Assembly (NCBI RefSeq): GCF_032884065.1
Contig: NC_088868.1
Location: 40,439,677 to 40,503,676 of the forward strand
Reading direction: 5' to 3'
Origin: Artemia franciscana
Lineage: Eukaryota > Arthropoda > Branchiopoda > Anostraca > Artemiidae
Length of the DNA stretch: 64,000 nucleotides
Position 1 is the first letter of the stretch, and the number at the start of each line of letters is the position of its first letter. Made by a program: the position numbers and the translations under genes. The notes beneath the pieces were generated by a model. That model had not been told where the DNA came from. It made no database searches and worked only from the letters and a program-made list of their open reading frames with translations. Shown here in pieces: positions 15,510 to 43,613 of the stretch.

Positions 15510-16387
15510 GTGAGCCCCAGGCTATACGAAATGCTACAAAATTTCATTAAAACAGTAAATTAATAAAAGGACAGCTACTAAAGTTAAAGCTCTTGAATGT
15601 TCTGTATGAAAAAATGGGCTTGAAGCATACAACACTACTGCTGATACACATTGCATAATTCATAGAGAACTTAAAATGTATTGAATATTGTCTTGTATTC
15701 AAGTTAAAACTTAAATCAAAACAAAGCACAGAGAGAGATTCTTGGGACTTATAAATTTGAAATGTGCAAAGATTTTTTCCTTCAAGGCAATTCTGAGTCA
15801 AATTGAACAAGTGACAAAAGTATGTTTGTTTTATACCACTATAGACAATAATGAAATCTCCCAAGACTATTCTGCAGGCCCACTGTAGAAAATAATGATG
15901 TACAAAACTTTTTCATAACAAATTTGCAATAGAGCTTAAATTAGAAAATTTCCTAACTTTTTCTTAACAAAATTGTAGTTTATTCCTGTGTCTAAACTCC
16001 GAATCATTAACTGCTAATATTTCTATTAAATCAAAATCTGTTTTAGCAGATCAAAAAAAATCCTGAATGTTCTCAGTAATAATAAACTCACGCACCTAAT
16101 AAAAAAAGTGTTTTGTCTTACATAGTTTTGAGACTTATACTATTAGTCAACTAAAAAAGGTAAAGAATTACAACGGCATTGAATAAAATATCTGAAACCA
16201 AAATTAAGTGAAATAATCGAAGCAGGAAAGAAGATAGTTTAGAAAATATAGTTTGCACGCACCATCTAATCCTGAGTATACTGTCGAAGGAAATGCAAAC
16301 ATCTTGTGATCTAAAGTGCGGTGTGACCTAAAAGGGTGGTGTACATAAATTAATACTTGAAATGACAGGTCTCTTACACAAAACAGA

Positions 16388-16473
16388 TTAGAAAGGATTT
16401 ACGAGAGAACGAGTTCTTTGATGCCGAGACAGGTGTGTTTTACGGGGGAATCTTTTCCCACACATGTGCCACA
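16388..16473 (-). pseudogene. Remnant of a 14th zinc finger beyond the stop of gene 1
   Basis: Immediately after the gene 1 stop codon the minus strand still reads CGTC, then, after a two-base frame offset, GKRFPRKTHLSRHQRTRS and a further stop. This is the pattern of a type A finger. Its end aligns with the last, intact finger of gene 2 (...RHQRTHTSENSL at 36,974), and the sequences past both ends are similar too. Gene 1 has therefore lost its final finger through a premature stop and a small shift after the duplication, or the ancestor was repaired in gene 2 (less likely). Confidence 0.75.
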
Positions 16474-17747
16474 TCAGAAAGGCTTTTCTTTAGTACAAAT
16501 TTTTTTATGGTACGATAAACCAGAACTTGAAGAAAACGATTTCTTACATATATAGCATAAAAAAGGTTTTTCTTCAGTATGAGTTTTCTTATGATAAGAT
16601 AAACTGGAACTTGAAATAAAGCATTTATTACATATATCGCATTTGTAAGGTTTTTCGCCAGTATGAATTCTTATATGATAAGATAAATTGGCATATAGAG
16701 TAAAACATTTCTTACATATTTCGCATTTGAAAGGTTTTTCTCCGGTATGAGTTCTTTGATGACCAAATAGGTGTTCTTTTCGGGAGAATGTTTTCTCACA
16801 CATATCACATTCGTATGGTTTTTCTCCACATTGAGTTTTTTTATGATAAAATAAACTGGAACTTGAAGTAAAGCATTTATTACATATATCGCATTTGAAA
16901 GGTTTTTCTCCGGTATGAGTTCTCTGATGACCAGATAGTTGGGCTTTTAGACAGAATGTTTTCCCACATACATCACATTCAAAAGGTTTTTCTCCAGTAT
17001 GAGTTTTTTTATGATTAGATAAACTGGAACTTGAAGTGAAACATTTATCACATATTTCACATTCGAAAGGTTTTTCTCCGGTATGTGTTCTTTGATGATA
17101 AGATAGGTGTTTTTTTCTAAGGAATGTTCTCTCACATGTATCACATTCGAAAGGTTTTACTCCAGTATGATTTTTTTGATGATCAGTTAAGCTGGAACTT
17201 GAAGTAAAGCTTTTATTACATATTCCGCATTTGAAAGGTTTTTCGCCGGTATGAGTTCTTTGATGACCAGATAGGTGGTCTTTTCGTAGGAATGTTTTCT
17301 CACACACATCACATTCAAAAGGCTTTTCTCCAGTATGAGTTTTTTTATGATAACATAAACTAGAACTTGAAGTAAAGCGTTTATTACATATATCGCATTT
17401 GAAAGGTTTTTCTCCGGTATGTATTCTCTGATGACGAGATAGGTGTGCTTTTTGACAGAATGTTTTCCCACATACATCACATTCGAAAGGTTTTTCTCCG
17501 GTATGAGTTCTCTGATGACGAGATAGGTGGGCTTTTTGAGAGAATGCTTTCCCACATTCATCACATTCGAAGGGTTTTGTCACATCATTTACAGCAAATA
17601 CATCAATGTCATTTGGCACCTCTTGGGATTGTTGAAAATCCGAATTCATTTCTTCTTTCACACATGTATTTGCAAATTCATATATGCTGGATAATCCAAA
17701 TGCTCGTTTGCTAATATCATTATTATAGAATGTTGCAGCGGGGAGAA
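16474..17747 (-). CDS. Zinc-finger gene 1, last coding exon: 13 C2H2-type fingers
   Basis: Encodes the DNA-binding part of a poly-zinc-finger protein, presumably a nuclear transcription regulator (family inference; targets unknown). The acceptor TTATTTCAG precedes 17,747 and the frame enters in phase 1. After about 50 residues of low-complexity leader (motif QQSQEVPNDIDVFAV) come 13 tandem 28-residue fingers of the form F-x-C-x2-C-x12-H-x3-H joined by HTGEKP linkers, from about 17,573 to the stop. Type A fingers (CGKTF, then xKAHLSRHQRTHTGEKP) mostly alternate with type B fingers (CNKCFTSSSSLSYHKKTHTGEKP). Finger 9 ends HKKTQC and finger 13 ends HKKIC, so a Cys could replace the last His as zinc ligand. 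The stop follows ...KEKPF; remains of a 14th finger lie just beyond. No KRAB, BTB or ZAD domain is seen. An ATG-less reading from 17,661 would begin at GTG, so the true start is in an upstream exon. Antisense and other-frame ORFs over the array are shadows of the repeat. Confidence 0.93.
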
Positions 17748-18079
17748 CTGAAATAACATAAAATACTCTTAAAATGAATAATGAAGTCTTACGTTTTTTA
17801 TGCTATCTTTTATTTGGTGCACTTTGGTTTTAGCATTCCTAACCTTACACAGTTATCATAAATTTAATATTACTAGCTCTTACCCCAATAATTAATTTGC
17901 AAGTCAATGTGATGCATTAATTTTATTACACTGTGAATTGTGAATACCTTTTAATTTTAAATTCTTCAGGTTGAGGAAGTACACAGTTTTATTTAAACGT
18001 GGTTTGTCTAAAAAAAACCATCGCTGTACTATGTCATGCAAGTAATACATGAACTCCCGACTTCTATCAATAAACACAA

Positions 18080-19480
18080 TTTTTTAAATAGAATAATCTA
18101 CACTCTTTAAAAGAGCAATAATTGTGCATATTAAATTTTTTTCTCGAAAACAGCTCCATGTTTTTTTTTAATTGACAGCCTGAGTTTTTCAATTTATGAA
18201 ACACGCTTCATTTAAATGACGTCACCAGTTATGTTGTAAGTTTTTATGCATGTTAGAGCCATTAACCAAGTTATGTTAAAAATTATTCACATCCTGATAT
18301 CTATTTCAATGATAGCAGAGAACTAACTATGTGAAAGAAAAAACTATCAGTCTATTTTCAAAAAGCTTTTGGAACAGCTATATAATTATAAAAAAGAATT
18401 GATTATGTAGCTAAAACCCAGTCTTTTATCTGGTTTATCCAAGTATTGCATTAAATCCCGGCTTTTGTAAATTAATATATATTTTTTCCAATAGAATAAT
18501 GTACCCTCTTAACAGAGATTAGCAGGCTTAGCTGATTAACAGAACCCCCTGACAGAACCCCTCTTTCCTGGTACTTATATTTATTTCGGACAATTTTTTT
18601 TCTTTTTAGTTATACTATAATATGTTTATATAATTTTTTACTATACCCAAACAGTTTGTCAAGGGTGGTCAAAGCAATCGAGGAATTATCTTATGAGAAA
18701 ATAACAGATTTCTGATATAGCTCTTTTTAGGTAGATCTTTCCAAAACAACGAACTATTATCGATGGTACAAAGAATCTCCATAATGCAATGACAATGTGA
18801 AATTAGGATTAAAAAAACAGATATCTTAAACCAGGCTAGTGTACAGTTATGTTTTTTAGAGGGAGGGAAGCAAAAACAGCTTGATATGGTTCATTTGAAT
18901 AAGAAGTGCAAAAATTTGGGACATTAAGGATTTCGGATAGAGTCAAGAAGTATTTTACATCTTTTTAATGCATCAAAATATTTTTGTGTACATTTTTACA
19001 AATTAGAAGATCTTGAAAGGGGGTCAAACCTGGGACCCCCTCCCTCTCTAAATAAAACTTTGATTTTGTAGCTAAAACCTGATCTTTTATCCGATTTATC
19101 ATTAACTCCAAACTTTTGTCAATTAACACATTTTTTCTTCAATTAGAATAATCTACCCTCTTTAAACAAGGAATAATGATACGTTTTTTTCTTGAAAACA
19201 GCTCCATGTATTCTTTTTTTTGAAGATTAAAACCCTAAGATTTTCAATTTTGGAAACACACTTCATTTAAATGACATCATGTTTGCACCAGTGTTCTAAT
19301 GACATCATACACTATTATAATAGTTTATACATGGTAGAGCAATAAACCACGTTACGTTAAAATCACTCACATCATCATATCTATTTTAATGCCGATATTC
19401 ATAGCAGAGAACTAACAGTGTAAAAATAAATCTATCAGTCTATTTGTCAAAAGCTTTTGGAACAGCCATATTGCCATCAA
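18080..19480 (-). repeat. Old ~1.05-kb tandem duplication in intron 2 of gene 1
   Basis: A block at 18,080-18,460 (anchors CAGCTCCATG, CATTTAAATGAC, CAGAGAACTAAC, AGCTTTTGGAACAGC) recurs at 19,130-19,480 with an offset of about 1,050-1,090 nt and visible divergence. A single version is expected in gene 2, where most of it is deleted. No coding potential is seen. The region between the two copies matches gene 2 intron 2. Confidence 0.65.
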
Positions 19481-19780
19481 AAAATATACCTACACGAAGA
19501 TCCAAAGCGAAAATTTACAATTGTTACAAATGATGATTTGATGGAGCAACGAATCATTACTGTATAAATATAATGATATAATGAGATATATAATATAATG
19601 AACCGACAAATAAAAGTTCAAAAGGGATATATCCTTTTAATTGACAGTTGTAATTTATAAAAAAGGTGGATATTCCAGTTACATGAGCAGTGACTGTACA
19701 TCAGCAAAAACACTGCTGCTGAGGTGAATGAAACAAATGTTAAAATTGTCAATCGCTGACTTAAATTGTTATAAAATTAT

Positions 19781-20632
19781 GATTCTGAAAGAAATAACAG
19801 GAAGAAAGAATCCAATTCACTCCGAAATTACTTAATTCAATTGACACTGCAGATTTGCCACCCTATTACTTAAAATAAAGAAAAAACAATAGTTATGCTT
19901 ATGCATAACTTAGACATTCCAGAAGGGATCTGTAATGGAAGCCACCTAATTATTATTGGATTATGTTTAAACATATTTTTGTTAGAATTATGTACAATTT
20001 TAATCCAATAAAAGAGAATCCAGCAAGCCACGTGCTGATCAACAGGACCCCATGGCAGAGCCGCTCTCCTGGTACTTATATTTATTTTGAATAATGTTTC
20101 ATCTTTTTAGTTATACTGTCATATGCTTAGATAATTTGTTACTATATCCAAGCAGTTGTCAAGGGTGATCAAAGCAATCAAGAAATTATTTTACAAGCAA
20201 AATTATGATTCTGAAAGAAATAACAGGAAGAAAGAATCGAATTCATTCCGAAATTACTCAATTCAATTGACACTGCAGATTTGCCACCCTATTACTTAAA
20301 ATAAAGAAAAAACAATAGTTATGTTTATGCGTAACTTCGACATTCCAGAAGGGAACTGTAATGGAAGCCACCTAATTATTATTGGATTATGTTTAAACAT
20401 ATTTTTGTTGGAACTATGTACAATTTTAATCCAATAAAAGAGAATCCAGCAAGCCACGTGCTGATCAACAGGACCCCATGGCAGAGCCGCTCTCCTGGTA
20501 CTTATATTTATTTTGAATAATGTTTCATCTTTTTAGTTATACTGTCATATGCTTAGATAATTTGTTACTATACCCAAGCAGTTGTCAAGGGTGGTCAAAG
20601 CAATCAAGAAATTATTTTACAAGCAAATAACA
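19781..20632 (-). repeat. 426-bp direct tandem duplication (two copies)
   Basis: The segment starting GATTCTGAAAGAAATAACAG at 19,781 begins again at 20,207 and the two copies are nearly identical to about 20,632. It includes a block (ACTTATATTTATTT...CAAGGGTGGTCAAAGCAATC) also present at 18,565-18,720. Gene 2 has only one, diverged counterpart (39,890-40,075), so the duplication happened after the genes separated and appears young. Confidence 0.85.
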
Positions 20633-21786
20633 GATTTCTGATGTAGCTCTTTTTAAGTAAGTTGAAAACAATTTTTTTACAGTTTTGAAATACCTTAGTT
20701 CTAGAATAGACAGTAGGTGTTCTGAATTGACTTCATCCCTCTTTTTACCACTATAAACGTGTGAACCTATTTTTTCGTTAATTATGAAGGCGTTTCTGGT
20801 GATCAAAAAACTAGTGACATAAAATAAACTAGAAATAAATAAACCAGATAAACTAAAATAAATAAACTAAATAAACTATTTAAATAAAATAAATAAACTA
20901 AAATAAACCAGAATAAAAAAAAAACCGAATCGAGTCTCAAAGAAACTCATCCGCCTACAACACAACAACCCTAAAGTTTTCATTATGCAGTTGACAACAA
21001 TTATGATACCCCTGAAATCAAGAAATCAAGCAACCTTGAAAATAAGCAATTATCATTTGTGTCTTTCAAATCCAACGGTTGCATGTGACCAAGAGGAGTC
21101 ACATCAAAAAAATCGAAAAAATTCACGGAATAGTGTCAAGCCAAACATAGGCCACTGGTAATTAAAACAAATGCTAAAATATCAAATTCACTGAGCACAT
21201 TATGCCCATGATGCACTTTCAGTTTTAGAAAAGGCAACATTTCTAAAAAAGCAATAATTTTTTGTTTTTAAAATCAGCCTTGCACCAAAGAGCCTAATTA
21301 AGCCTCATATAAATTATTCACTTCTTTTGTGACAGTGTTGCATTAAAAGCAAATGAAACTAAAGCATTTTAGAAATAATCATTTGACTACCGATTGGTAT
21401 ATTGGCATATTATCAAGGCATAATTCCTAGAACAAGCATATTATTTTAGTTGCATATGTCTTAATCCGAACATAAGAAACAAGAGCATACATATCTTAGT
21501 TTGAAGAATCTGTGAGTTCTAGCTAGATCCAAAGCTAAAAAGAAGGTTTCAATCGAAATAAAGTTTGTCTTTTTGTTTTGGGTTTAATTGGGATATAAAT
21601 TTTTATTTTCAAATAATTAGTCACCCAGGACTATTTTTTAACAAAATGTTGCCTTTCAATTATAGCAAGTACACTCAGCTCCAACAGACACATATCCCTC
21701 ACACCCTACCACAATTTAGAAGATACACCTAAATTATTTTGAAGACTCACAAAACAAAACAAAAATTCAGGATAACTGAAGCATAC

Positions 21787-21957
21787 CTTTGTCCAGGCCA
21801 ATATTTGCGTCCAGATTAATATGGTTAGCATCAAGTTTACAACTTTCAGATATCCCAGGAGAAACTGCTAACAGATTGGCTTCAAGCTCCATAAATAATA
21901 TAGAATGTGTACTTCCAAAAATATCTTTGTGATCATTTGAGAGAGAATCTCCATCTT
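21787..21957 (-). CDS. Zinc-finger gene 1, coding exon 2 (57-codon N-terminal domain)
   Basis: A 171-nt exon with acceptor ATTTTTTAG before 21,957 and donor GGTATGC after 21,787. Both borders are phase 1, so the exon could be skipped without a frameshift. It encodes an acidic segment containing DIFGS, ILFMELEANL and SPGISE, ending GLDK. The same exon, the same length and the same phases occur in gene 2 (40,407-40,577), with 39 of 57 residues identical by hand alignment. The flanking intron is much less alike, which supports coding function. I recognise no named domain; it might be an effector or protein-interaction segment in the place where KRAB or ZAD sits in other zinc-finger proteins (inference). 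It lies 4,039 nt upstream of the finger exon. Confidence 0.82.
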
Positions 21958-22230
21958 CTAAAAAATTATAATAAAAGTCAAATAAAAACACTTACAAAAA
22001 TACAAATCTGTTACTTATAAAACGTTTTGAATTCCACAATATTTTATACGGTACTTTATGGATAAGTAAAATTGGATTGGTTCTATTGACATCTAGAGAC
22101 TTCATAAAAAAAAATTAATTGACTGATTAAGAGATAATTTAAAAACCCAAAGAATGTCAGAGGATAATCATCAATTGTCATAAGTTGTTTCAAAAGTTTC
22201 TCCATTATGGTCGAAGAGATAGCTGCAACC

Positions 22231-22450
22231 AAGGAAAGAGGAAACTGCAACCCAGGAAGGAGGAACTGCAACCCAAGGAAAGAGGAAACTGCAACCCAGG
22301 AAGGAGGAGCTGCAACCCAAGGAAAGAGGAAACTGCAACCCAGGAAGGAGGAACTGCAACCCAAGCAAAGAGGAAACTGCAACCCAGGAAGGAGGAACTG
22401 CAACCCAAGGAAAGAGGAAACTGCAACCCAGGAAGGAGGACCTGCAACCC
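22231..22450. repeat. Minisatellite, five 44-bp units
   Basis: Exactly five units of 44 bp start at 22,231, 22,275, 22,319, 22,363 and 22,407. Each unit is two imperfect half-units around AACTGCAACCCA. Because 44 is not a multiple of three, every frame stays open and produces false ORFs on both strands. It lies in intron 1 of gene 1. The same intron position in gene 2 (about 40,850-40,880) has only a single degenerate half-unit between the same flanks (ATAGCTGC... and ...TAGCAGCAGAAT). Confidence 0.93.
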
Positions 22451-22894
22451 ATAGCAGCAGAATGCTTAAAGACTATTCTTCAAAAAAAGCTGACCAACCA
22501 GAAAAATAAGAGGTGATTGGAGACTCACCCCTCAGGTGATTATACTGATATAATAGAGCGGAGACTACTATTACTTTGAACTATGCTGTTAGTGAAAAAT
22601 TGGTTTAATTGAAAGATCCCAATTGGAATTATCATTGTCACTGAACGTTTTAAGCTGCTGCTACTAAAAATCTAAGAGGATCCTAGTAGCAACTAAAAAG
22701 ATAAGGTAGTACCATTTGCAGTTGCCTTTTAGTCTGTTCAACAAGCTAAAAGTTTTAGTTTGTTCAACAATCTAATATGAACACACAGTTTATTAAAGGG
22801 ACATATCAGCAATGTCATAACAATGGCTAATTTTAATAGGTTGAAACTTCCAAAGAATTAATGAGAGGGATGTTTAATTGACCAATAGGCAATA

Positions 22895-22985
22895 TGCTAA
22901 TACTACTGCTGCTACTGGTACTACTGCTATTACTATTAACAGTATTACTAGAAATACCAATAATACTAATGTGACTAGTATTACA
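22895..22985. repeat. Imperfect ACT/AAT trinucleotide tract
   Basis: A run rich in ACTACTGCT and ATTACTA triplets with many interruptions, in intron 1 of gene 1. Similar AGT/ACT-rich tracts occur at 12,180-12,290, 42,020-42,110 and 42,300-42,345, usually next to family E repeats. Confidence 0.6.
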
Positions 22986-23208
22986 ACACCGCCTAAGGGT
23001 ATGAAGGAGAAATTCTCAAGCAGTTTTGGTAGGAAGTTGAACTGAATCACAACAAACCATCTGTATATGGGTCGTCAAAAGGGTGCAACAGCTACATCTT
23101 AGGAACAGTTTGGCGTGTGAAGTTGAAGCTAACAGGGCTTATTATGGGGGATATTGAACAACCCAGGGTAATATATTTGCATCCTAATGTTTCTGCTTTT
23201 ACTCATAC

Positions 23209-24170
23209 TGCTACTACTGGTACTCTACTTTTCTATAGCCCAACTATGGATTTTTATGGAAAAAAAACAAACAAAAAGATATAACATATTTTTTTGCCTG
23301 AAAAAGGATACAGTATGTCAATAAAAAACGAACAGTAATTAATTTTAAAAAATATCATAAAGCAAGTTTTTTAAAGAAGAATAGAGCTCCATTAAACCAA
23401 AAAGAAGCAGACAAAAAGTCAAATAATCTCCCAAGCATAAAAATACCTACTGCTACTGGTACTCTACTTTTCTATAGCCAAACTATGGATTTTTATGGAA
23501 AAAAAAAACAAACAAAAAGATATAACATATTTTCTTGCCTGAAAAAGGATACAGTATGTCAATAAAAAACGAACAGTAATTAATTTAAAAAAATATCATA
23601 AAGCAAGTTTTTTAAAGAAGAATAGAGCTCCATTAAACCAAAAAGAAGCAGACAAAAAGTCAAATAATCTCCCAAGCATAAAAATACCTACTGCTACTGG
23701 TACTCTACTTTTCTATAGCCAAACTATGGATTATTATGGAAAAAAAGAACAAACAAAAAGATATAACATATTTTTTTGCCTGAAAAAGGATACAGTATGT
23801 CAATAAAAAACGAACAGTAATTAATTTTAAAAAATATCATAAAGCAAGTTTTTTAAAGAAGAGTAGAGCTCCATTAAACCAAAAAGAAGCAGACAAAAAG
23901 TCAAATAATCTCCCAAGCATAAAAATACCTACTGCTACTGGTACTCTACTTTTCTATAGCCAAACTATGGATTTTTATGGAAAAAAAAAAACAAACAAAA
24001 AGATATAACATTTTTTTTGCCTGAAAAAGGATACAGTATGTCAATAAAAAACGAACAGTAATTAATTTAAAAAAAAATCATAAAGCAAGTTTTTTAAAAG
24101 AAGAATAGAGCTCCATTAAACCAAAAGAAGCAGACAAAAAGTCAAATAATCTCCCAAGCATAAAAATACC
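23209..24170. repeat. Tandem array, four ~240-bp units
   Basis: Units begin with TACTGGTACTCTAC at about 23,216, 23,455, 23,696 and 23,937 (steps of 239, 241 and 241). They differ by a few single bases and by A-run lengths, so amplification was recent. The unit holds CAAACTATGGAT, GATATAACAT, CAGTATGTCAATAAAAAACG and a segment shared with the A-rich stretch after 24,070. No ORF of note. It lies in intron 1 of gene 1 and is absent from gene 2. Confidence 0.93.
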
Positions 24171-25536
24171 GCAAATTACCAGCATCAAACAGAAATTACA
24201 ATAAATAACCAAGACAAATTCAAAACGAGCAAATATAAACATAAGTAGGGGTGATAACCCTTGTGCCATAGGAGGACCAGAAAATAATTTGGACTATATT
24301 GAAAACAAAATGCATTTCAAAAGCTTTCCCTTTTTTACTTTAACAACAGAAAATTATAAAGACTTTAAAGAATAAATATCAGTATATGTATATTAAACAG
24401 GCAATCCATGGTTATTAGTTTGTTTTTAATTTGTATAATAATTTCAAAAGTTCATTAAAAAATTGTCACTGTAAGAGGCTGCTTTAAAAAAAAACAAACA
24501 TAACCATTTTTCTAATGTTATTCAAGACAGTGCAAGGGAACTGAGTACAATAAGATTCCTCAAGAACTTTTCATACATTCTGTAAAATATTTGTCATATT
24601 TAAAAAAAAAAAATACACAACACTTTTATGAAGACCTGTATTTCAGTTGCTGAATATAGGAAGGAGCCTTCAATTTTTAAATAAACTTGTAATGTAAACA
24701 TCAATATTGGCCTATATTTATTTTTTGCTTTCTGGTACTCTAAAAATGAATAATAAACCTCAGACAGTTCATGTTTGGGATCCGCCTAAGCTGTTGAGGA
24801 AGGGAGACTGAAACAGCTGTTGCAGAAACATCAACTGCAACAGCACCTTCCATATTAAGTGACTTTGAAGAAAAAAATGTAAAAAATAATACATTGAACC
24901 CACTTTGCTCTATACTCAAGCAGTACAATGAATAATGCCTGTGAAAACACCTTAAGATTTTCATTCTATTCAAATATGCAACAATGTTTTGGTTAGAGAC
25001 AAGATCCTAGTTCTATCAGTTTATAAACAAAGGATGTATACTTCCTGTAAAAGCAATGCAAATTAACCCTCAAGTCAAAAAATCATGTTTCATGTTCCAT
25101 CTCTTTTGCTCAGCACTATTTATCCTGTAAACTAGATAAAGAAATTGCAAGAGGGAGGTCTAGATGATCCCCATTCTCTGAAATGTCAAAAATTATACAT
25201 AGAAAACTAGCTAGAAGCCTCATTTTTGCATACTTCTCACCATATAAGGGCAGAAAGACAAAAGGGGTGGGGGTAATTTAAGAGTCTGATGGGTAAGGTG
25301 GTTTTTAAATGTGTGGGTTATTAGTTTTAGCAAAGGCAATACAAACAAAATGTTGACAAGATGATGGTTTGGAAACTTCTTTGTTGAAATGTTTATGACT
25401 TTTATAGTCTGTTTACTCGGTTTTTCAAGTAAAAGTAGCAGATTTAAGTAGGAAATTGTAATGAATGTCCTAATTTTCTACCAAATATAACAAAAAGAAG
25501 CAGCAAATTGAACCAATCAACTCTAACACCAATTAC

Positions 25537-25579
25537 CTTGCTTAACAACAGTGGTGCCAAACAGCTGAGGTGCTTCCAT
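25537..25579 (-). CDS. Zinc-finger gene 1, start exon (coding part)
   Basis: The ATG at 25,579-25,577 opens MEAPQLFGTTVVKQ plus one base, then donor GGTAATTG. Joined to exon 2 (phase 1) it continues as E-DGDSLSNDHKDIF. An in-frame TGA lies two codons upstream of the ATG, which favours this start. A possible acceptor (ATATTCCAG before 25,645) suggests that the exon carries about 66 nt of 5' UTR and that a further non-coding exon lies upstream, not located. With this exon the full coding sequence is 43 + 171 + 1,274 = 1,488 nt, that is 495 residues plus a stop. This is a manual prediction without transcript support; the phase fit and total length are the main arguments. Confidence 0.62.
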
Positions 25580-25649
25580 GCTTCACAAATTGAGTCTCAA
25601 ATGCACAGTCAGCTTCTCTTGACTGCTCTAGGCAATTGGAAATATCTGG

Positions 25650-27370
25650 AATATAAATAACTATATCTTTATAACAGTATTACATATTCCTAAGAAAACA
25701 AAGTGCAAAAATCCTTTAAAAAGTTTGAAGATACAGACACAAAAATGGTACAGATTCCATTGTTGAATATGGATATATTGAAATTTGTAGGTAATGACAT
25801 TTGTAATATATTGATATTTGTAATAATGCTACTAAATAGTACTTTCTACTTATAGCACTTTTTACAACAGTTTACTTCTTTAGCTGGACCAACAGGACCA
25901 ATGTATTTTTATTTCAATTTGCTGAATTTTAGATTTTTTAGATAAGCATTAAGTATTTAGCCAGGACAGCACAGAAGCAGCCCATTCAACCAAGAAAAAT
26001 AAAAAACTGTAAAATATCTTAAACTTCAGGGACTAGGCTGCTTAATATTTCCTTTAATTTGCCTTTTGATTTACTAAAAAGGACCAAGAAATTTTGATAA
26101 CCAAGCTGATGAAAAGTGAAAGACTTATTTAAAGAAAAAAAAAACTTACTTTAGAAATGGTTAAGCAGCCTACAAGCACCAAATCACTTCCAGTTTTAAT
26201 CACATCAATATTATTATGATAAACCTTTGAGATATTAGATAAATTAGATTTTTCTTAGATTAATATTGTTTTTGTGAGCATGTTGAATCACATATTTGGA
26301 AAAACAGAGGTGCAGCATAAAGCTCATGCACTTCAGCATTTCTAATCCAGTTTCTAGAGTCAGCAATCTTATGCTGCCCAAGCAAATACCCAAAAAAGAT
26401 AGTTTTTTTTACCTAATCTTTTTTTGGATAGAAGGGATAGTGATAGTAATTTTGGAAGGTTCTCAATAGATTAAAAATTGTAAATTCCAGAACCTGAATT
26501 TATTATTATGTTTGATTTGTTATATTAGGCTACAGTTATCAAAATGGCATTTCTGCAACATCTCATAAATTACTCATCAGGATGAATTAGAAAGGTTGAG
26601 GAAGAACTTGAGCAAGAGGGTTTTGTATTTTGTACATACAGTAAAGGGATGTGGGAGGCAACATGTGTCTGCCTCTAATCTGCCTAGGAGTTTAATCTTA
26701 TTTAATGGAGCTAACATGAGCATGTTGGTGTCACTCTCCCTTAACTGGGGACTGAACATTCTAAGCAACCCCTCAATCTCAGGCTCTCTCCTCTTCGGTG
26801 TCAGCAACACTGGACCAAAAAATAAAGGAATGGTGGTTGAAAAAAAATTTACAAAACTAACCTTATGTGTTAGTTATAGTGAATGTGTGGGATTAGCCTA
26901 CTTAAGGCTGGTCCTAGACTAGCCTGGCTCACTACAATCTTGGAAAAATATTAATTCAGACTACTATTTCCTTGGGCCTAGACTAGAATCAAGTAATCCC
27001 ATAAATATGCCTCATAGGTTTAATGATGCCATTTCTCATCTTCTATTGTTTAAAATATTTAAAAAAATAATAAACTAAAAAAAAGACTTATTCAACTTCA
27101 ATTTTTATTTAGTCATAAAATTTGAAATTACCAAATATTATTAGTTAAAATTATTCATTAAAAGAGCTAGGTGTAGATTGTACTAATCAATTAGCCTTGG
27201 TCAATATAGTCAAAACTAAAGTCATTGGCCTGAATACCAGTCAGATAAGCAGCTTGTGCTTTATAGACAGTAACTAGAAAAAAATGAAAGCTTCATTATC
27301 TTGGCTTGCTAGTAGATTCTTGTGGAGGCTGTGACCTCTGTAAAGATTCTTTATTAATATAAGTATACTG
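25650..27370. other. Upstream of zinc-finger gene 1; nothing firmly identified
   Basis: AT-rich with repeat-like stretches. 26,570-26,925 is open on both strands over 75-105 codons without a recognisable motif. The promoter and any 5' non-coding exon of gene 1 may lie here. Confidence 0.4.
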
Positions 27371-27374
27371 TCTA

Positions 27375-27715: not shown

Positions 27716-27956
27716 GTCAATTGAGAATTTGGTGGGCAGCTGTCAGAAACAGATATCCACCATATGGCAAATATGGGGTAAAGTTCATTTGAGATGCAAA
27801 TGAATATTACATTTAGAATCAGGATGCAATTCCTGGTATATATTTGCACAGTAGGTGGGTTGGGGGTAGCCTATATTCTCTGTAAATATGTAGGCTGGAT
27901 TCTAAGGAATTCATGAATTTCTAAGAAAACCTGGAAAAACAAGGAAAGAAGAGAAT

Positions 27957-32099: not shown

Positions 32100-32610
32100 T
32101 TTAAGAAATATTTGTACACTTCAGATCAAGTGCAGTGCAGAAACACCATCTAAGTTAAGAGAAATGTGGACAGAGTGTATTATTTTTTCTTACTAAGGCA
32201 CTTCCTACAGAAGAAGTAGTCGTAGATGTTTGGTAGTAATTTATCTGACTGAAAATTGAAAGTTCTCATGCCCTTCTAAGAGCTAAGTGACTGGGGGGCA
32301 ACTTGCCCCTATGCACTTTTTTCCCTAAAAGCATCCCATTCAACTTTTGAGATAGCTATTTTGTTCAAAATAGTCCAACATTCAAATAATTTTGATTCCA
32401 TGGTACCCCCCTCCACAGGGCCCCGGGCTGTACACTCTGCAAGTTTTTCATTGTAGAAATGCAAATATTGAAAGGAAGGTTGGCTGTGTAAACTTTGGAG
32501 GAGGCTCACTCGATTGAAAATAGAATGCTACAGTACCATTTTTTTGGGGGTAAAAACTAATCAGATATCTCCCTCAACCTACTCAAAGATTTCACATTAA
32601 TAGTTTAATA
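32100..32610 (+). repeat. Interspersed repeat family D, copy 2
   Basis: Partner of 6,190-6,660. A related, more decayed stretch is at 31,300-31,710 (GATAGCCATAATGTTC, GAGCATCAGACCCCAC-type text). Confidence 0.78.
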
Positions 32611-33739: not shown

Positions 33740-34805
33740 TTAAAAACAAGAGCCAAGAGCTCATACGGGACTTGTGGCAAGAGCCAAGAGCCAAGAGTTC
33801 ATATGGCATAAGCTCTATAAGCAAAATTCTAAGAATCTATAGACTGATTTAAAAGGAAAATAAAAGCCTTAATGCTGGTCGGGATTTAAAATAAGAGCTC
33901 TGAGACACGAGTTCCTTCTAAATATCAAATTTCATTGAGATCCGGTCACCCGTTCTTAAGTTAAAAATACCTCAATTTTTCCAAATTAACTACCCACCCC
34001 CCAACTCCCCAAAAAAGACCGGATCCGTTCCAATTATGTCAATCACATATCTAGAACTTGTGCTTATCCTTCCCATTAATTTTCATCCCGATCTCTCCAC
34101 TCTAAGTGTTTTCTAAGATTTCCGGTTTCCAATATTTCTGTTTCCCCCTCCAATCCCCTATGTCCCCGGATCCGATTCAAATTGAATATGGAGCATATAA
34201 GACTTAAAATATTTCTACATATCAATTTTCATTAAGGTCCGATCACCCATTCGTAAGATAAAGAAATCGGAATTTTTCCGTTATCCAAGATATCTGGTTT
34301 CCCCCTCCAACTTCCCCCAATGTCACCGGATCTAGTCGTGATTTAGAATAAAAGCTCTGAAGCCCAAGATTCTTCTAAATATCAAATTTCATTAAGATCT
34401 GATCACCCGTTCGTAAGTTACAAATACCTCATTTTTTCTAATTTTTCCGAATTAACACCCCCCCCCCCCCCCAAAAAAAAAAAAACAAAGAAAGTGGGTC
34501 CCGTCTGATTATTTCAGGCACGTATCTTGGACTTGTTATTTTTCTTCCCATCAAATTTTATCCTGATCTCTCCACTCTTTTATAAGATTTCCGGTTGCCA
34601 CAACCCCAACGGCCCCCAATGACACTGGATCCGGTCTGAAATTAAAATAAGAGATCTGAGTTACGAGGTTCTTTCCAAGTTACGTTCCAATTATGTCAAT
34701 TCTATATCTAGAACTTGTGCTTATTCTTCCCATTAATTTTCATCCCGATCTCTCCACTCCAAGTGTTTTCCAAGATTTCTGGTTTCCAATATTTCTGTTT
34801 ACCCC
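33740..34805 (-). repeat. Family S in reverse orientation, about three monomers
   Basis: Reverse complements of the S landmarks (TTTCATTAAGATC at 33,925, 34,225 and 34,385; CATCCCGATCTCTCCACTCT twice) and of its GAGCTC-rich end (CCAAGAGCTCATA, 33,755-33,815). It abuts the Penelope-like copy at about 34,805. Confidence 0.8.
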
Positions 34806-34814
34806 CTCCATATA

Positions 34815-36380
34815 ATAATATTAAGAACCAAAAAATAAAAACCTTAAGAACCAAGAACTTTGAAAGATCTAAAAACAAATGATTCTCTAATAATAACGAA
34901 AGCTGATAAGAGGAATACTGAGGCAATTCTAGAAAGAGATGAATATGATAATAAAATGGAAACAATTCTAGAGGATAGTTCAAATTAAAAAATAATAATA
35001 CAGACCCGACTGAATTGTAAGTAGCAAAATTAAGAAAGGATTTAGCAGACCTTAAGACTAACGAAAATATCTCACCACAAATATATTGTGGTTCCTTCCG
35101 AATAGGAAAATTCCTTATCTTAATTCCTTAATTCCTTATCCGAATAGGAAAATTCCTTATCCGGAAGGATAAGTTCCTTCCGAATCGACCAGTCTACCCA
35201 AGAATATACGGTGTGCCAAAAATACATAAAATTGCTATTCCTCTGAGACTTATAGTGTCGACTACTAGCTCAGCAACTTATAAGATTGAAAAATGGGTAG
35301 TAAAGACACTTAAACCTTTACAACATCACCAAAATTCTTACATTGAAAACTCGGAAATTCAAAAAATAGGTTTATAAATGTTGAAATATCAAACGAATCT
35401 GGGTTGTTTAATTTTGATACAAAATCAATGTATACACATATTCCTTTTGATAAATCTTTTAGTATTTTATCCAAGACACTTGAAGAACATAAAGATGAGG
35501 TAGAGGATTCATCTGCGGGAATCGAAATAGAAACTATATAAAATTTAGTTGAAATAGCTAGTAATTATACGAACTATTTTAAATTTAGAGATAATTTTCT
35601 CCATCAAATTAGGGGTTTACCAATGGGAGGACTTTAAGAATTAACAAATTTAGACCCATATTTGTTAAAACATAAGTTTTGGGGAAGATCTTTGGATGAT
35701 ATTTTAGGTATTTTAAGTCATAGAGAATCTGAAATTACGGGTTTTCTAAAATATTGAAAGTTTTTAGAAGGGGACTTCGTTTTTACACAATTGAAAAAGA
35801 AACAGGCAATAAGTCACCGTATTTGGATATCTGGATAATAATAATAATAATAATAAATTAGCTTTTGGATAATAATAATAATAGCTGGATAATAATAATT
35901 ATTTAATAATAATAATAATAATAATAGATAATAATTATCATTATTAATAATAATAATAATAATAAATTAGCTTTTGGATAATAATAATAATAGCTGGATA
36001 ATAATAATTATTTAATAATAATAATAATAATAGATAATAATTATTATTATTAATAATAATAATAATAATAAATTAGCTTTTGGATAATAATAATAATAGC
36101 TGGATAATAATAATTATTTAATAATAATAATAATAGATAATAATTATTATTATTAATAATGATAATAATAATAAATTAGCTTCTTCAATTTACCGTAAAC
36201 CGACCAACAATAACCACTATTTGTCTTTCATGTCAAATCACCGAATCCAAGTAAAAAGAGGAGTCCTAGTTCATAGGGCATTACATTAGCATCACCAGAA
36301 TACACAAGTAAGGAACCAATTTCCATTAAGGACATTTTAATAGGTAATAGATACCCTGAATGTTTTATTAAACAGGGTAT
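34815..36380 (+). mobile_element. Penelope-like element copy 1, broken
   Basis: Plus-strand pieces in the order expected of a Penelope-like RT: SLIITKADKRNTEAILERDE (from 34,878), PRIYGVPKIHKIAIPLRLIV (about 35,197), FNFDTKSMYTHIPFDKS, LPMGG, KFWGRSLDDILGIL and, after an expanded AAT-rich block (35,835-36,178), KLASSIYRKPTNNNHYLSFM. IYGVPKIHK and YRKPT are signature Penelope-like motifs. Several breaks make it inactive. No GIY-YIG endonuclease part is seen before the zinc-finger duplication begins near 36,385. Confidence 0.85.
35835..36178 (+). repeat. Three ~106-bp AAT-rich units inside the Penelope-like copy
   Basis: AAATTAGCTTTTGG starts at 35,855, 35,964 and 36,070, and a fourth, variant AAATTAGCTTCTTC at 36,173 (steps of 109, 106 and 103). 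Each unit is mostly (AAT)n on one side and (ATT)n on the other, so single strands can pair. The last junction continues into the element's KLASSIYRKPT sequence. Confidence 0.9.
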
Positions 36381-36973
36381 CCTTAAGGTATACGCTTTTT
36401 GTTTTATACCAATACAAACAATAAGGAAATCTTCCAAGACCGTTCTGCAGGCCCACTGGAGGAGACAATTGTGTATAACACTTTTTCATATCAATTTATA
36501 GCCTAGCTTAAATTAGAATATTCAATATCTAACCTTTTCCTCAAAAAATGTTGTAGTGTGCTCCTATGTCTAAACTGCAAAAAATTAAATGTTAGTATTT
36601 TTATTAAATCAAAATGTGTTTGAGCCAATCCAAAAAAACAAACACTTCCAAATGTTCTCAGTAATAATAAACTCACTCACCTAATAAAAACTAAATGTCC
36701 CTTATATTACATAGTAGTGAAACTTATATATTTAGTTAATTAAAAAGGGCAGAGTATTCCAACAACATTAGAAAAGAAATATGAGACTGAATTAAAGTGA
36801 AACGAAAAAAGCGGAAAAGAAGATAATTTAGGAAATATAGTTTGTAAGCATCGTCTAGTCTTGAATATACTCTCGAATTCAACTCCAGATATATTGTGAT
36901 ATGAAGTGCGGTTCCACAAAGAGGTAAGGTATAAATTGATGATTGAAATGAAATATTTCTTAAATAAATCAGA

Positions 36974-38328
36974 TTACAAAGAATTTTCGCTAGTATGAGT
37001 TCTTTGATGACGAGATAGTTGGGCTTTTAGACAGAATGTTTTCCCACATACATCACATTCGAAAGGTTTTTCTCCGGTATGAGTTTTTTTATGATAACAA
37101 AAACTGGAACTTGAAGTAAAACATTTATTACATATATCGCATTTGAAAGGTTTTTCTCCGGTATGAGTTCTCTGATGACCAGATAGTTGGGCTTTTACAC
37201 AGAATGTTTTCCCACATACATCACATTCAAAAGGTTTTTCTCCAGTATGAGTTTTTTTATGATTATATAAACTGGGACTTGAAGTGAGGCATTTATCACA
37301 TATTTCACATTTGAAAGGTTTTTCTCCGGTATGCGTTCTTTGATGACCAGATAGGTAGTCTTTTCGGAGGAATGTTTTCCCACATACATCACATTCGAAA
37401 GGTTTTTCTCCGGTATGAGTCCTCTGATGACCAGATAGATGGGCTTTTAGATAGAATGTTTTCCCACATACCTCACATTCGAAAGGTTTTTCTCCAGTGT
37501 GAGTTTTTTTATGATTAGATAAACTGGAGCTTGAAGTGAAGCATTTATTACATATTTCGCATTCAAAAGGTTTTTCTCCGGTATGAGTACTTTGATGATA
37601 AGATAGGTGTTTTTTTCTAAGGAATGTTCTTTCACACATATCACATTCGAAAGGTTTTACTCCAGTATGATTTTTTTTATGATCAGTTAAGCTGGAACTT
37701 GAAGTAAAGCTTTTAGTACATATTTCGCATTTGAAAGGTTTTTTGCCGGTATGAGTTCTCTGATGACGAGATACGTCGGTTTTTGAACAGAATCCTTTCC
37801 CACATATGTCACATTCGAAAGGTTTTTCTCCGGTATGAGTTCTTTGATGATAAGATAGGTAGTCTTTTCGGAGGAATGTTTTCGCACACACATCACATTC
37901 GAAAGCTTTTTCTCCAGTATGAGTTTTTTTATGATAACTAAAACTGGAACTTGAAGTAAAGCGTTTATTACATATATCGCATTTGTAAGGTTTTTCACCG
38001 GTATGTGTTCTCTGATGACGAGATAGTTGTGCTTTTTGACAGAATGTTTTCCCACATACATCGCATTCGAAAGGTTTTTCTCCGGTATGAGTTCTCTGAT
38101 GACGAGATAGGTCGTAATTTGAACTGAATGTTTTCCCACATACATCGCATTCGAAAGGTTTTGTCACATCTACAGCAAATATATCAATGTGATTTGGCAT
38201 CTCTTGGGATTGTTGACAATCCAAATTCACTTCTTGTTTTAGACATACTCTTGCAAGTTCAGGCATACTGGATAATCCACACACTCTTTGGCTGATATCA
38301 TTATCATAGGATGTTGTAGCAGTAAGAA
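36974..38328 (-). CDS. Zinc-finger gene 2, last coding exon: 14 C2H2 fingers
   Basis: Paralogue of gene 1. The acceptor ATTATTCTAG precedes 38,328 and the reading frame enters in phase 1, exactly as in gene 1. The leader reads LTATTSYDNDISQRVCGLSS and then QQSQEMPNHIDIFAVDVTKP. Fourteen complete 28-residue fingers follow, all with C2H2 ligands, linked by TGEKP (one TGKKP, one TGVKP, one TGEKA). The A/B order is A A B A A B A B A A B A B A, against A A B A B A B A B A B B B in gene 1, so fingers were gained, lost or converted since duplication. The protein ends HTSENSL. Expected role: nuclear sequence-specific DNA binding (family knowledge); the target is not predictable by eye. A start at 38,284 would be internal to this exon; the real start should be in an upstream exon. 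Confidence 0.92.
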
Positions 38329-40406
38329 CTAGAATAATATTAAATTTACTTAAAATAAATCATAAGTAACACATTTTTATCATATCATTCATTTGGTACA
38401 CAACTCTGGTTTTAGCATTCCTAACGTTACACAGTTGCCATAAATTTAATATTAATCACTTTTACCGCGATGATTAATTTATAAAAGTCAGTATAAGACA
38501 TTAATTTTATTACACTATTGTTTCTTAATTCCGTTTTATTTGTAGTTCTTCAGCTTGAGTTAGTACATAAATTTACTTAAATGTGGTTGGTCCTTAAAAA
38601 CATCTCCCTTTAGAGAAATAAATATATCACTATTATTTATTTCAACTATATTGAAGAAATTATTTTAGTCTAATTTTCATAAGACTTGTGAGCAGCTATA
38701 ATAACCAAGAGGAAGATCCAACAAATGAAAATTTATAAATGTTAGTAACGAATCATCCTCAAAGATGCAAAGAATCTGCGTAATACAAAGGTAGCGTGGA
38801 ATTAGGAATAAAAAAAAACTAAATATATGACATCAGGCTTTTGCAAAGCAATGTTTTTTAGGGAGGGGGATACAAAAAAATGTTTAATTGGTTCTTTCGT
38901 TCAGGGTTTGAGATAGGGCCGAGAAGTGTTTTAAAAATTTTCTAAAAGATGCATCAAAAATCTTTTAATATACATTTGTGTTACGTTTTTACAACTCGGA
39001 CCAAATTGGAGGGGAGGGGGGGTCAAACCTAGCAGCCCCTCCCCCTTTGGATATAGCCTTGATTGTGTATCTAAAACCCGGTTTCCTAACAAGTATGAAC
39101 CATGGATGGATGATAGACTATCTATCAATAAGTGAAAATGAAATCATTTTTATACAATCCTCAATAGGGATTATGCCAGATTTGCCTCTCACTCAGACTA
39201 TCTGTCTAAGCTCTTTTCTCCAATTAGCCATGGCTTGATAGCATTTGGATTTTAATTCAAAAGTCAACAGACTCCGTCGTACATCAGCAAAAGTATTTCT
39301 GCTGAGGTTAGTAAAATAAATGTGAAAATTGTGAATCCCTGTTACTAAATATTATAAAAATTATGATTCTGTAAATGATCCTTCAAAATGAAGAAATATG
39401 TATAAAAAATTGGATAATTAATAAATTTTAAATTTTATTTCTCTTAAACAAAGAGGGTTACTTGTGCTTTATTCTGTAGGCTGTATCACTTTCTTAATTT
39501 TTTTTCTTTTATTTTACATCGAAAGAAAATTATGTGAAATCAAGAAGCAAAAGTTGACAATGCAAGTGCAAATTTTCAGGCGCTAAACAAAAACAATTTT
39601 GAGCAAAATGAACATTTGTGCTGTTTCGTCTTTGGAATCTTTGTTAACATTGATAAATTTAACCACTAAGGGAGGGGTGGGAGATGAATATACGAAGCTT
39701 CCAAAAATGGAGGAGGGGAGGGGTCTAAGAATATTTTTGTAGTGAGAGGCCTTGAAACAAAAAACTCATTTCTAGTTCCATTTTTATCAATTTTTTTCTC
39801 GAAGTATCCTTCATGTTGGTCTTTGGATGACTTAAATATAAAGAAAGATACGATAGTTATGCTTATGCGTCACTTAAATATTCTGAAAAGGAATAGCAAG
39901 AAGAAGGAATTGAATTCACTCCAGAATTCCTTAATTCAATTGATACTGCAGATTTTCCACCCCATGACTTAAATATAAGGAAAAATACGATAGTTATGCT
40001 TATGCGTAACTTAAATATTCTAGAAGGGACGTGTAATAGAAACCACCTAATTATTACTGGATTATGTTTAAACATACATTAAACGACTTTACTTGCTTTA
40101 TTAACTACTTATTGCAAAAAACTATACATACACACAACGGCCCAGGGAAGGCTCACACAGCCTGATGTTGGACGGCTAAGTTATAATGAACTGCTATAAT
40201 TTTACCATAGGTTTTTGTTTTCTAATAATTAGAATATTCCAGGACTATTGTTTACAAGATGTTTCATTTCAATTGTAACAAGTACACTCAAGTTCAAAAA
40301 ACACACATCTTCCACACCCTGCCACAATTTACAAGGAAGAGCAAGATTCACCTTTTCATTTTGAAGACACAAAAAACAGAATAAGTTCAGGATATCTTAA
40401 GCATAC

Positions 40407-40577
40407 CTTTGTCTATGTCAAAGCTTGCCTCGGGTTTAATATGATTAGCGTCAAGTTTATAATTTTCAGATATTCCAGGAGAAATTGCACTCAGATTGGC
40501 TTCAAGTTCCATAAATAGTATAGGATGTGGACTTCCAAAAATATCTTCATTATCATTTGAGGAGGTATCTCCAAGTT
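40407..40577 (-). CDS. Zinc-finger gene 2, coding exon 2 (57-codon N-terminal domain)
   Basis: Counterpart of 21,787-21,957: the same 171 nt, acceptor TTTTTGTAG, donor GGTATGC, phase 1 at both ends. It encodes ELGDTSSNDNEDIFGS, then ILFMELEANLSAISPGISE and ends FDIDK. The DIFGS...ISE core is the best conserved part against gene 1. It joins in frame to the finger exon across a 2,078-nt intron. The upstream exon carrying the ATG was not found; homology to the gene 1 intron runs to about 43,050 and stops before an N gap. Confidence 0.8.
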
Positions 40578-41739
40578 CTACAAAAATCAGAGTAAAAACC
40601 ATATAAAAACGGTCAAAACAATAGAAGTCTGTCATTTATAACACATTTAGAATTCCAAATATTTTTAAATGGTACTTAATAGAGTAAAGTTGAATTGATT
40701 CAATCGACATCTAGAGACCTCGTCAAATAAGAAGATAAAAGTGAATGAAAAAGAGATAATTTTAAAACACAAAGAAGGTTGGGAGGATAATCACCAATAA
40801 CCATAAGCTGTTTCGAAAAGTTTCTTCACTATGGTTGAAGACATAGCTGCTACCCAGGAAAGAATAAACTCCAACCCTTAGCAGCAGAATACCTAAGACT
40901 AGTCTTGAAAAAAATCTGACCAACCAGGAAAATGAGACCTTTTACCCTGATTGGAGACCTCGGGTGACTATGCTGATATCCCAGAGTAGGGACTATTATT
41001 TCGAACTATGCTGATAGTAAAAGCTTGCAAGGAAACATAGTTTAAGCAAATGAAAAAAAAAACTATAAATTCGCAACGAATGGGAATGGAAAGATCACCA
41101 TAGGAATTACTATTGTCACTGAAGATTTTAAGCCACTGCTATTAAAAACCCAAGAAAATCCTACTTTAGGCTGCGGGTCGCTGATGTCTCTTTGTGTGTA
41201 CCTAGCATTCTTTTGATATAAACATGGTTCAGAGCCTCGGCAGTAGGTTTACAGTCTCCTGTCTCGACTAATTCTCCTCTTAGCCCCTTTAGAAGCTAAA
41301 ATACTCGTTTTGATAAAAACATCCAAATAAAAAATAACACTAGGTTTACCCCCTGAAAGAAACAGCTTCCCGACAAGCCTATTACGGTACCTTACGCCAA
41401 AATGAAACGATAATTATATCATTTTCTCAACAAATTCGAAACCTGTTGTTGTTTCAATGACTTTTAACTAATTAACTATCTAAAAAAAAACAATATAAAA
41501 CAAATTTAAAAAATTCAAGGTTTGACGGAGTAAAATATCGGCTAGAAAGATAAATTAAATTGTCATCTTACGTTGCAACAATAAAACTAAGAGAAAAACA
41601 ATGTACTAACAATTTCGAATAATAAATGGACGTCTGTAGGCCTATACCATTTTGAGCTATGTCTCCCCCAGCAGGCACAGTAAGGGGTGAGAAATAAATT
41701 GCTGATTTTTGAATCTTACTTAATACTCCAAGGTTTTCT

Positions 41740-42480
41740 TTTTGCTGGGATGTTGCTAATGCAATCTTTCATAATCCACGTGTACATAGTGTGTTTGGTT
41801 CAGTTCGGCATACCTTTAAAATACCCTAAAAACTTAACGTTAATATTTTAAGTATTTACTTAATATTATATATGGAGTATTTAATATACAATAATATATA
41901 TTATAATAGTATTTATAATAGTAATTTGTAATTTATAATAGTATTTAATAGTAATCTATAATAGTATTTCTTTAATAATAACGTTACAAACTAGTTTTCC
42001 TGAAAATTTTAACCTAATATCCTTAGTACTAACAATAGTACTAGTTGCAGTAGTAGAACTAATAGTATAAGCATTGGAAGTAGTCCTATAGAAGCACTGG
42101 TAGCACTAACATTAACATTGTGCCTTTTTGGTCTAGGCTAGTAAAAAAAAAGAAAAAAAAGAGAGAAAAAAAGAAGAAAAGCAAATCATGAAATATTGCT
42201 TATACATCGTTTTGATAACCCACATTTTTATATTGCCCTTTGATTTAGTCTAAAAACAACTTCAACATTCCTCCGAAATTCTATCTCAATTACCATTACT
42301 CTTAGTAATAGTGAAAATAATAGCAGTAGAAGTACTATTAGCACATTTACATTTTCGCATTACATAGTACAGTTTTATTAGTTCAAGATCCCCCTCAATA
42401 TGCCCTGAAAGTTACAACCTAATGCTCTAAGCTGTTTCTGAGATATTTCTGATATGGCCTCTTCACAGCCTACTATAGAT
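41740..42480 (+). repeat. Family E segments and AGT-rich tracts in intron 1 of gene 2
   Basis: TTTGGTTCAGTTCGGCATACC (41,797), AGTAGTAGAACTAATAGT tracts (42,020-42,110; 42,300-42,345), CCTCAATATGCCCTGAAAG and TAAGCTGTTTCTGAGATAT (42,395-42,445). Between them is AT-rich sequence with repeated ATTTATAATAGTA (41,890-41,975). Confidence 0.5.
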
Positions 42481-43513
42481 TACTCCCTACCATAGATACT
42501 ATAGACTACTCCAGTGATATAGCTGTTGTGCTTTTTTTTTGTTGATTTTTGAATTAAAATGGAATAATTGTGGGCATCAAGTCATGGCTGATTGTAGAAA
42601 AAGCCAAGACAGATATTCCAATTGAGTGATAAGCAAACCTGGCATTAATTCCCCCCTTATTAGGATTGTATAAAAAGGAGGTTAGTTTATTTGTTAAGAG
42701 ATTAACAAATTTATGTTAATAGATTTAATGTTCTAAGATTCAAATCTATGTTAATAGATTTGAGCGCCACTCTAAATGAAATTCACCAAAATGTCGGTCA
42801 AACAGTCAATCATAGAAAGCACAATAACAACTTAAAGAATACTTTTAGGAAAACTTGTAGCCACTTCATTAGATAAAACAACTGTTTCAGCCACTGGAGA
42901 TAAGAAGGAGCATTTAATTTTGAAATAAACAAGTAATTTAAAATCAATATTAGCCTATATTTGTTGTTTGTTTTCTGGTACTCTAAAAATGACTAATAAA
43001 CCCAATATGGCTCATGTTTGGGATCTACCAAAGCTGTGGGAGGGGGACCAGAGAATTTTTAATATCTCAGCTCTAGCTGGTTCCTAAAAAAATCACAGAT
43101 ACGAATTTTTAACAACCTGCAAGTACATGGTGTTTTGTTTTAGTTCACTACTCTCCTCAAAATTCCCTAGAAGCTCCACCAAAATACCCCTTTTTGGTTT
43201 GAATCCCAGAGATCAAAGATGTCCTTTTTCCCTGATAACAAATACTATATGTAAATAGTGGGGACACTGCATAGCTTACATCCTTGCTCTGAGGGCTGTG
43301 GGGGATGGAAATTTCAAAAGACATAATGATTGGACCTTTGTTAAGCAAAATAACTATCTCAGAATTTTATGAGGGGGCAAGTTGCCCTATAATCGCTTTT
43401 GACTCTTATAAAAAGTACTAGAACTTTCAATTTCCAATCAAATAAACTTTTTTCGAAATTTCTAGAACAGCTCCTTCCATATGAAGTGCCTTTGTAAAAA
43501 CTAATGAGAAAAA

Positions 43514-43613
43514 NNNNNNNNNNNNNNNNNNNNNNNNNNNNNNNNNNNNNNNNNNNNNNNNNNNNNNNNNNNNNNNNNNNNNNNNNNNNNNNNNNNNNNN
43601 NNNNNNNNNNNNN
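43514..43613. other. Assembly gap of exactly 100 N
   Basis: A run of 100 N, the usual placeholder for a gap of unknown size. It follows the end of the zinc-finger duplication by about 460 nt. Confidence 0.99.

Follow-up and report, generated by a model that had tools for sequence, protein, structure and literature searches.

The 64,000-nucleotide window analyzed here (Artemia franciscana scaffold C6:40439677-40503676, from an assembly of 1.27 Gb in 6468 contigs) carries two exons encoding C2H2 zinc-finger arrays on its minus strand. They belong to two genes, which we call A and B. Judged from their sequences, A, B and a third gene, C, found elsewhere on the same scaffold, are almost certainly three head-to-tail paralogues in the order C-B-A, derived by segmental duplication of a three-exon gene. 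All three are members of a large Artemia zinc-finger (ZNF) family marked by a leader exon of ~57 residues in phase 1/1; our high confidence is a joint one for the whole of this structural part. The ancestral gene would have had a short exon 1, the phase-1/1 leader exon, and a final exon encoding a short leader and the finger array. Genes A and B themselves are an ordinary outcome of tandem duplication, and the interest lies in the private leader exon. An earlier sequence-only reading of the window had reported the A/B pair. New relative to it are the third gene C, an assembly break that removes exon 1 of B, and the leader exon as a family mark.

The exons are listed in Table 1. In all three genes the last exon encodes a short leader and 12 to 14 counted C2H2 fingers. 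Exon 1 of A, B and C can be aligned and ends at the same donor, CAAG/GTAATT; its end phase is the same in A and B. The exon 2 donor (AAAG/GTATG) and the exon 2 phases are identical in A and B. The sequence-only reading described a minus-strand gene pair sharing exon sizes, phases, leader, finger types and intron blocks in one order. This description was confirmed except for the exon sizes, which agree for exon 2 (171 nt in both) and differ for exon 1 (43 vs 49 nt, 6 nt apart) and, owing to the finger number, for exon 3. The finger types FECDVCGKTF.. and FKCDICNKCF.. mostly alternate, and a 168-bp period is among those reported. A finger-by-finger matrix of A against B is colinear at the start of the array and rearranged later. 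Beyond the stop codon of A lies a decayed finger, the counterpart of the last finger of B.

A dot-plot of A against B gave nine blocks in one common order across introns, exons, 3' flank and 5' side (Table 1, which excludes shorter finger-on-finger matches), and the similarity is thus not confined to the fingers. Since the intron, 3' and 5' blocks are colinear, the comparison supports the earlier proposal that A and B arose by segmental duplication. The likeness might alternatively be made up of generic finger repeats and dispersed intron repeats with no single duplication behind it. Several repeats do occur within the introns, some of the further A/B matches stem from a 426-bp tandem duplication in A, and three weak matches (E 1e-4 to 3e-7) fall off the common order. 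We regard this alternative as extremely improbable, given nine blocks in one order, the resemblance of exons 1 and 2 and of the 3' flank in A and B, and one intron 1 block found at no place outside A, B and their second copies (near-identical A and B repeated elsewhere on scaffold C6). This last block (24641-24808) was located at four places genome-wide, A, B and their second copies; three other hits of the query touch only its adjoining part. The search skips very common words, so the uniqueness of the block is strong, not absolute. The 3' flank was found genome-wide in A, B, their second copies and gene C, and weakly at one place on C21.

Upstream of A the similarity continues on the other contig of B, at 24839-25159, 25441-25739, 25826-26248 and 26964-27053, with ~9 kb in B lacking an equivalent in A between the first two of these matches. 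Matches beyond 28.9 kb overlap each other or are repeats and were not counted. An upstream limit of the duplication at 31.4 kb was rejected for the same presence of repeats, and the limit was put at about 27.05 kb. Synonymous divergence between A and B is 0.26-0.34, as compared to ~1% between second copies. The introns of A contain tandem repeats of 426 bp (19773-20627), 44 bp (22223-22451) and 241 bp (23214-24170), and the A unit may differ in size from the B unit partly for this reason.

On the reference scaffold the A-B locus is apparently represented twice, and gene B is broken. A stretch of the window is repeated in inverted orientation 1.5 Mb away (Table 1). Identity is 98.9-99.6% in the three main blocks and 97.4% over a 0.7-kb piece, and repeats leave short parts unaligned. 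In both places the match breaks off at an assembly gap: at 43513, before the gap beginning at 43514, and at 38967205, before the gap beginning at 38967206. A match ending at a gap in both places points to two overlapping contig ends that were left unmerged. The location of the second copy on the same scaffold, 1.5 Mb away and ~1% divergent, could also suggest a true inverted duplication with two A-B pairs in the genome. We consider this very unlikely, as the match ends exactly at the gap in both places and the scaffold ends 49-113 kb from the window. For the A. franciscana female assembly (2024), a contig N50 of 383 kb is reported and haplotigs were purged (PMC11492255), which also tells against two true pairs. 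With a contig overlap, the sequence to the right of 43613 need not be the true neighbour of B. The duplicated unit, previously taken to end at 43050, runs instead into the assembly gap, and exon 1 of B is found elsewhere. As the locus is apparently held twice and gene B is broken, copy counts and gene models in this region need long reads.

Table 1. Positions of genes A, B and C, of the A/B dot-plot blocks and of the assembly break (window coordinates unless given as C6)
Feature	Position	Strand	Remarks
Gene A exon 1, coding part	25537..25579	-	43 nt; MEAPQLFGTTVVKQ + first base of next codon; aligned with exon 1 of B and C
Gene A exon 2	21787..21957	-	171 nt, phase 1-1; leader-exon family member
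Gene A exon 3	16474..17747	-	leader part + 13 C2H2 fingers; stop codon 16474-16476
Finger remnant beyond gene A stop codon	16388..16473	-	matches last finger of B in A-B alignment; ends approximate
Gene A 3' flank	15815..16400	-	common to B and C
Gene B exon 1	C6:38930603-38930651		49 nt; MESSNMETFGSTAVKQ; on other contig, outside window
Gene B exon 2	40407..40577	-	171 nt, phase 1-1
Gene B exon 3	36974..38328	-	leader part + 14 C2H2 fingers
Gene B 3' flank	36398..36970	-	common to A
Gene C exon 1	C6:38911208		40 nt; aligned with exon 1 of A and B
Gene C exon 2	C6:38912561-38912722		162 nt
Gene C finger exon	start about C6:38914580		frame open; 12 fingers by pattern used
A/B block 1	15825-18028 / 36398-38612		76.7%
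A/B block 2	18748-19079 / 38747-39078
A/B block 3	19696-19790 / 39279-39374
A/B block 4	19782-19975 / 39880-40076
A/B block 5	21595-22253 / 40207-40877		77.6%
A/B block 6	22412-22602 / 40838-41027
A/B block 7	22607-22685 / 41085-41163
A/B block 8	24641-24808 / 42885-43048	-	intron 1; 81%
A/B block 9	24839-24886 / 43466-43513
Assembly gap	43514..43613		100 N; end of contig with gene B, here without exon 1
Stretch repeated inverted	15652..43513		at C6:38939899-38967205; read as contig overlap

The leader exon recurs across the genome. A 115-residue leader query gave 124 genome matches at E<=10, and leader exons were read from 55 loci by in-frame AG and GT. Both signals were present in 55/55 loci, a count that is weak alone, since the reading could choose among 13 acceptor and 17 donor positions. 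Two duplicate readings (L035/L040 and L036/L038) reduce the set to 53 distinct exons. The 55 readings have lengths of 171 nt (26), 168 nt (16) or other values (13); nearly all of the 168-nt exons become 171 nt if the outer AG is used, and some of the other lengths are misreadings (L051 contains a stop; L061 and L074 have odd donors). An alignment of 38 leaders yielded the consensus ExEDxSSNDDKDIFGSxHPxLxMExEANLFAxSPGISxDCxxNxDHLKLESNIDGDK. With this consensus as query, 110 places reached E<=1 and 81 of these also E<=1e-3, while the reversed consensus as a control yielded 0 places at E<=1. The 81 places, most of them locally clustered, are spread over 11 of the scaffolds C1-C21 and three small scaffolds: 31 on C12, 12 on C20, 10 on C8, 9 on C18, 5 on C6 (including second copies), 3 on C21 and the rest on eight others. 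Second copies, the C6 pairs among them, count as places here, and 81 should not be taken as the number of genes. A, B and C are among the matches, each with a downstream finger exon of the leader type.

We compared the 81 exon-2 places (of 110) with 86 leader-type finger-exon starts, drawn from the best 150 of 2356 candidates; rows matching fingers only were excluded, and so were five leader-like rows that were weak or contained a stop (on C16, C107 and C2, and two on C6 near 10.7-10.9 Mb). Within 10 kb a start lies downstream on the same strand for 54/81 places, upstream for 1/81 and on the other strand for 0/81; within 20 kb the counts are 59, 6 and 4. Widening the range to 30 kb blurs the pairing (63 downstream, 15 upstream and 14 on the other strand, of 81). 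Several leader exons occur in twos 0.5-2.5 kb apart, at C12:36099045/36099554, C12:36134402/36134955, C12:39451576/39452427 and C18:31607671/31610127. These look as if one gene carried two leaders, and the copy at C12:36134955 opens with an in-frame stop.

The leader tree omits L051, L061 and L074 and uses two sister leaders as an outgroup. In it A and B are sisters (Shimodaira-Hasegawa-like approximate likelihood ratio test, SH-aLRT, 98), and C falls outside that pair at a position that is not settled; 26/46 inner branches are open, and the outgroup is attached by long branches. The tree groups by scaffold, with 15 changes against a shuffled mean of 26.2 and 0/200 shuffles as low. This clustering indicates that the family grew mainly by local duplication, with some moves between scaffolds. 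Searches of a protein database with the leader of A returned one hit, and a seven-leader query returned nine, 9/9 from Artemia franciscana. This search works from 5-residue words in common and scored the 7990 candidates with the most such words; relatives may therefore exist in other branchiopods, and absence elsewhere is unproven. Of the eight leader proteins besides P0121 (described below), several look like chimeric or frameshifted models. The sequence-only reading had suggested one node of a crustacean-specific expansion. The expansion is borne out by the 81 leader places, and its scope is narrower than proposed, the proteins from the leader searches being all from Artemia franciscana.

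The family was compared with known zinc-finger families. KRAB-ZNF genes of tetrapods form clusters of tandem copies with one finger exon and a separate leader exon. The Artemia genes share these features, but KRAB (PF01352) was matched neither by the finger-exon frames of A and B nor by any of 38 leader exons. ZAD-ZNF genes of insects represent a lineage-specific arthropod expansion of poly-finger genes with an N-terminal module, as do the Artemia genes. ZAD has a characteristic cysteine set, whereas the Artemia leader consensus has a single cysteine, and ZAD (Pfam zf-AD) gave no match in the same frames and exons. The earlier statement that neither KRAB nor ZAD is present thus holds for the finger-exon frames and leader exons, exon 1 (14-16 codons) being unscanned. 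At most three of the 38 leader exons gave any Pfam match, all weak and unrelated (best E 0.052), and a PDB search with the leader found nothing at E<=1. Homology searches with fingers only were swamped by vertebrate ZNFs and gave no useful kinship.

The FiNZ-ZNFs of cyprinid fish carry a short acidic N-terminal sequence of 28 residues and number about 700 genes in zebrafish, as stated in the text of Wells et al. (2023, PMC10547256). Like them, the Artemia family has a lineage-specific acidic N-terminal sequence on its own exon upstream of a single finger-array exon. It differs in its 57-residue leader, its phase-1/1 exon and its separate exon 1, and the FiNZ sequence is described in that paper as unique to cyprinids. 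The two are set apart here by host and length as given in the paper's text.

A further likeness was found within the same species. The ZFP2-like proteins P0004 and P0010 have a weakly similar, colinear leader of similar length (hhalign probability 83%, E 8.8e-6, against a two-row profile) preceded by VKxE, and differ by an extra GIWRC...CPICLCE block between leader and array. A tblastn search of the locus with their N-terminal parts gave mostly finger noise, plus gene C. Proteins of this type form a second large Artemia finger family, with the longer leader and the GIWRC...CPICLCE block, on C14, C13, C16, C20, C5 and other scaffolds. With 132 of 1256 candidates scored, at least 133 matches to this family reach E<=0.01; the identity of some is as low as 34-46%.

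We consider it probable that the structural account holds together with a role of the family as putative SUMO-recruiting repressors. In an AlphaFold model of P0128 the fingers fold as C2H2 arrays, residues 1-180 have block pLDDT values (predicted local distance difference test) of 22-34, and no fold is predicted for the acidic leader. The motif [VILMF]KxE is the SUMO consensus. It is present in 27/38 exon-2 leaders (shuffled mean 2.9, maximum 10 in 2000 shuffles), and 10 longer leaders contain 27 occurrences (2.1 on average after shuffling, at most 7). Among eight leaders of the same exon structure (A, B, C, P0123 and P0125-P0128), all 8 have a site where exon 1 ends, 6 have one in the KLE part of exon 2, and 6 have one in the early part of exon 3. 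The fingers would bind DNA, and the acidic leader would recruit a silencing partner, most likely via these hydrophobic-K-x-E sites, often one per exon. After duplication, copies would diversify into repressors of different sequences, as in the KRAB- and FiNZ-ZNF families. For the single steps our confidence is lower: that the leader putatively causes repression, as its motifs suggest, is tentative and falls short of an even chance, and transposons as putative targets are more doubtful still. A Drosophila ZAD zinc-finger protein described as guiding H3K9me3 provides an arthropod precedent (PMC9822104).

Several observations weigh against the repressor reading. Four of the 27 motifs are MKHE elsewhere in exon 2, gene A is without the exon-2 site and gene C without the exon-3 site. 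The 10 longer leaders are related, so the motif counts show conservation and not independent events. P0004 and P0010 alone have no motif excess (196 and 189 of 1000 shuffles reach them), and the AlphaFold alignment of P0128 had 8 rows only. The frames of A and B are open, and the A-B ratio of nonsynonymous to synonymous divergence (dN/dS) is 0.56 for exon 2, 0.73 for the exon-3 leader and 0.56 for the fingers; for B-C exon 2 it is 1.07 (none tested against 1). These ratios are not low, so some copies may be relaxed. DNA-contact residues of A and B show no significant excess of change (8/36 vs 19/171 other finger residues, Fisher p = 0.10).

The leader could instead be an acidic transactivation domain and the family one of activators. 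The 38 exon-2 leaders are indeed acidic, with on average 21% D+E and 7% K+R, and the consensus segment DKDIFGSxHPxLxM places hydrophobic residues beside acidic ones. SUMO-consensus sites, which the leaders carry, are more usual in repressors than in activators, and we regard the activator reading as unlikely.

The leader exons may also behave as movable modules, with same-phase leaders of neighbouring genes spliced together into multi-leader proteins. P0121 (QYM36_013889), a deposited predicted protein, matches exactly exons 1C-2C-2B-2A-3A; it is either a fused gene model or a real read-through transcript. The phase 1-1 of the leader exons and the closely spaced leader pairs noted above are in keeping with such splicing. 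As a predicted protein that includes no more than the first fingers of the A array, P0121 could, however, be a chain made by a gene finder. We judge splicing between genes to be improbable, somewhat more so than the activator role.

In its widest form, the repressor reading would make the family an Artemia-own leader-exon class of repressor ZNFs, an independent arthropod counterpart of the KRAB- and FiNZ-ZNFs. The leader would be a string of SUMO motifs on same-phase exons, multiplied by duplication or by cross-gene splicing, and the class would silence transposons in a genome that is two-thirds repeats. So broad a proposal is speculative and, as a whole, unlikely. Tetrapods, cyprinid fish and insects have lineage-specific ZNF families with an N-terminal module of their own; a branchiopod one would be a separately marked addition. 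With it one could examine whether silencing by ZNF arrays evolves repeatedly with different recruiting modules, and the leader alignment offers a means of annotating and counting the class and of knocking it down. As far as our literature searches reach, the family is undescribed: titles and abstract openings on Artemia, brine shrimp, Anostraca and crustacean zinc-finger expansion contain no description of it. The word 'zinc' does not occur in the main text of two Artemia genome papers (PMC8406910, PMC11492255), nor 'Artemia' or 'crustacea' in the main text of Wells et al. (2023).

Other finger loci and one further element were noted. At C1:62117001-62124500 (L079), continuing to 62137802, seven finger open reading frames spaced 3331-3332 bp apart were found among the matches listed. 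The repeat is 99.9% self-identical at 3331 bp over 7.5 kb, and its 367-aa frame is, by eye, without a leader of the A/B type. It is either a zinc-finger macrosatellite-like array or an assembly effect. At C6:4080652-4261967 finger genes with similar frame lengths stand in near-mirror order on both strands, which may represent another contig overlap or a palindromic cluster. Within the window, positions 47887-50970 (plus strand) hold several separate open frames in a row, one of which contains a reverse transcriptase domain (PF00078, 49492-50409). The series lies between long (TA)n tracts at 47057-47414 and 50980-51253. This element looks like a broken non-LTR-type (long terminal repeat) retroelement.

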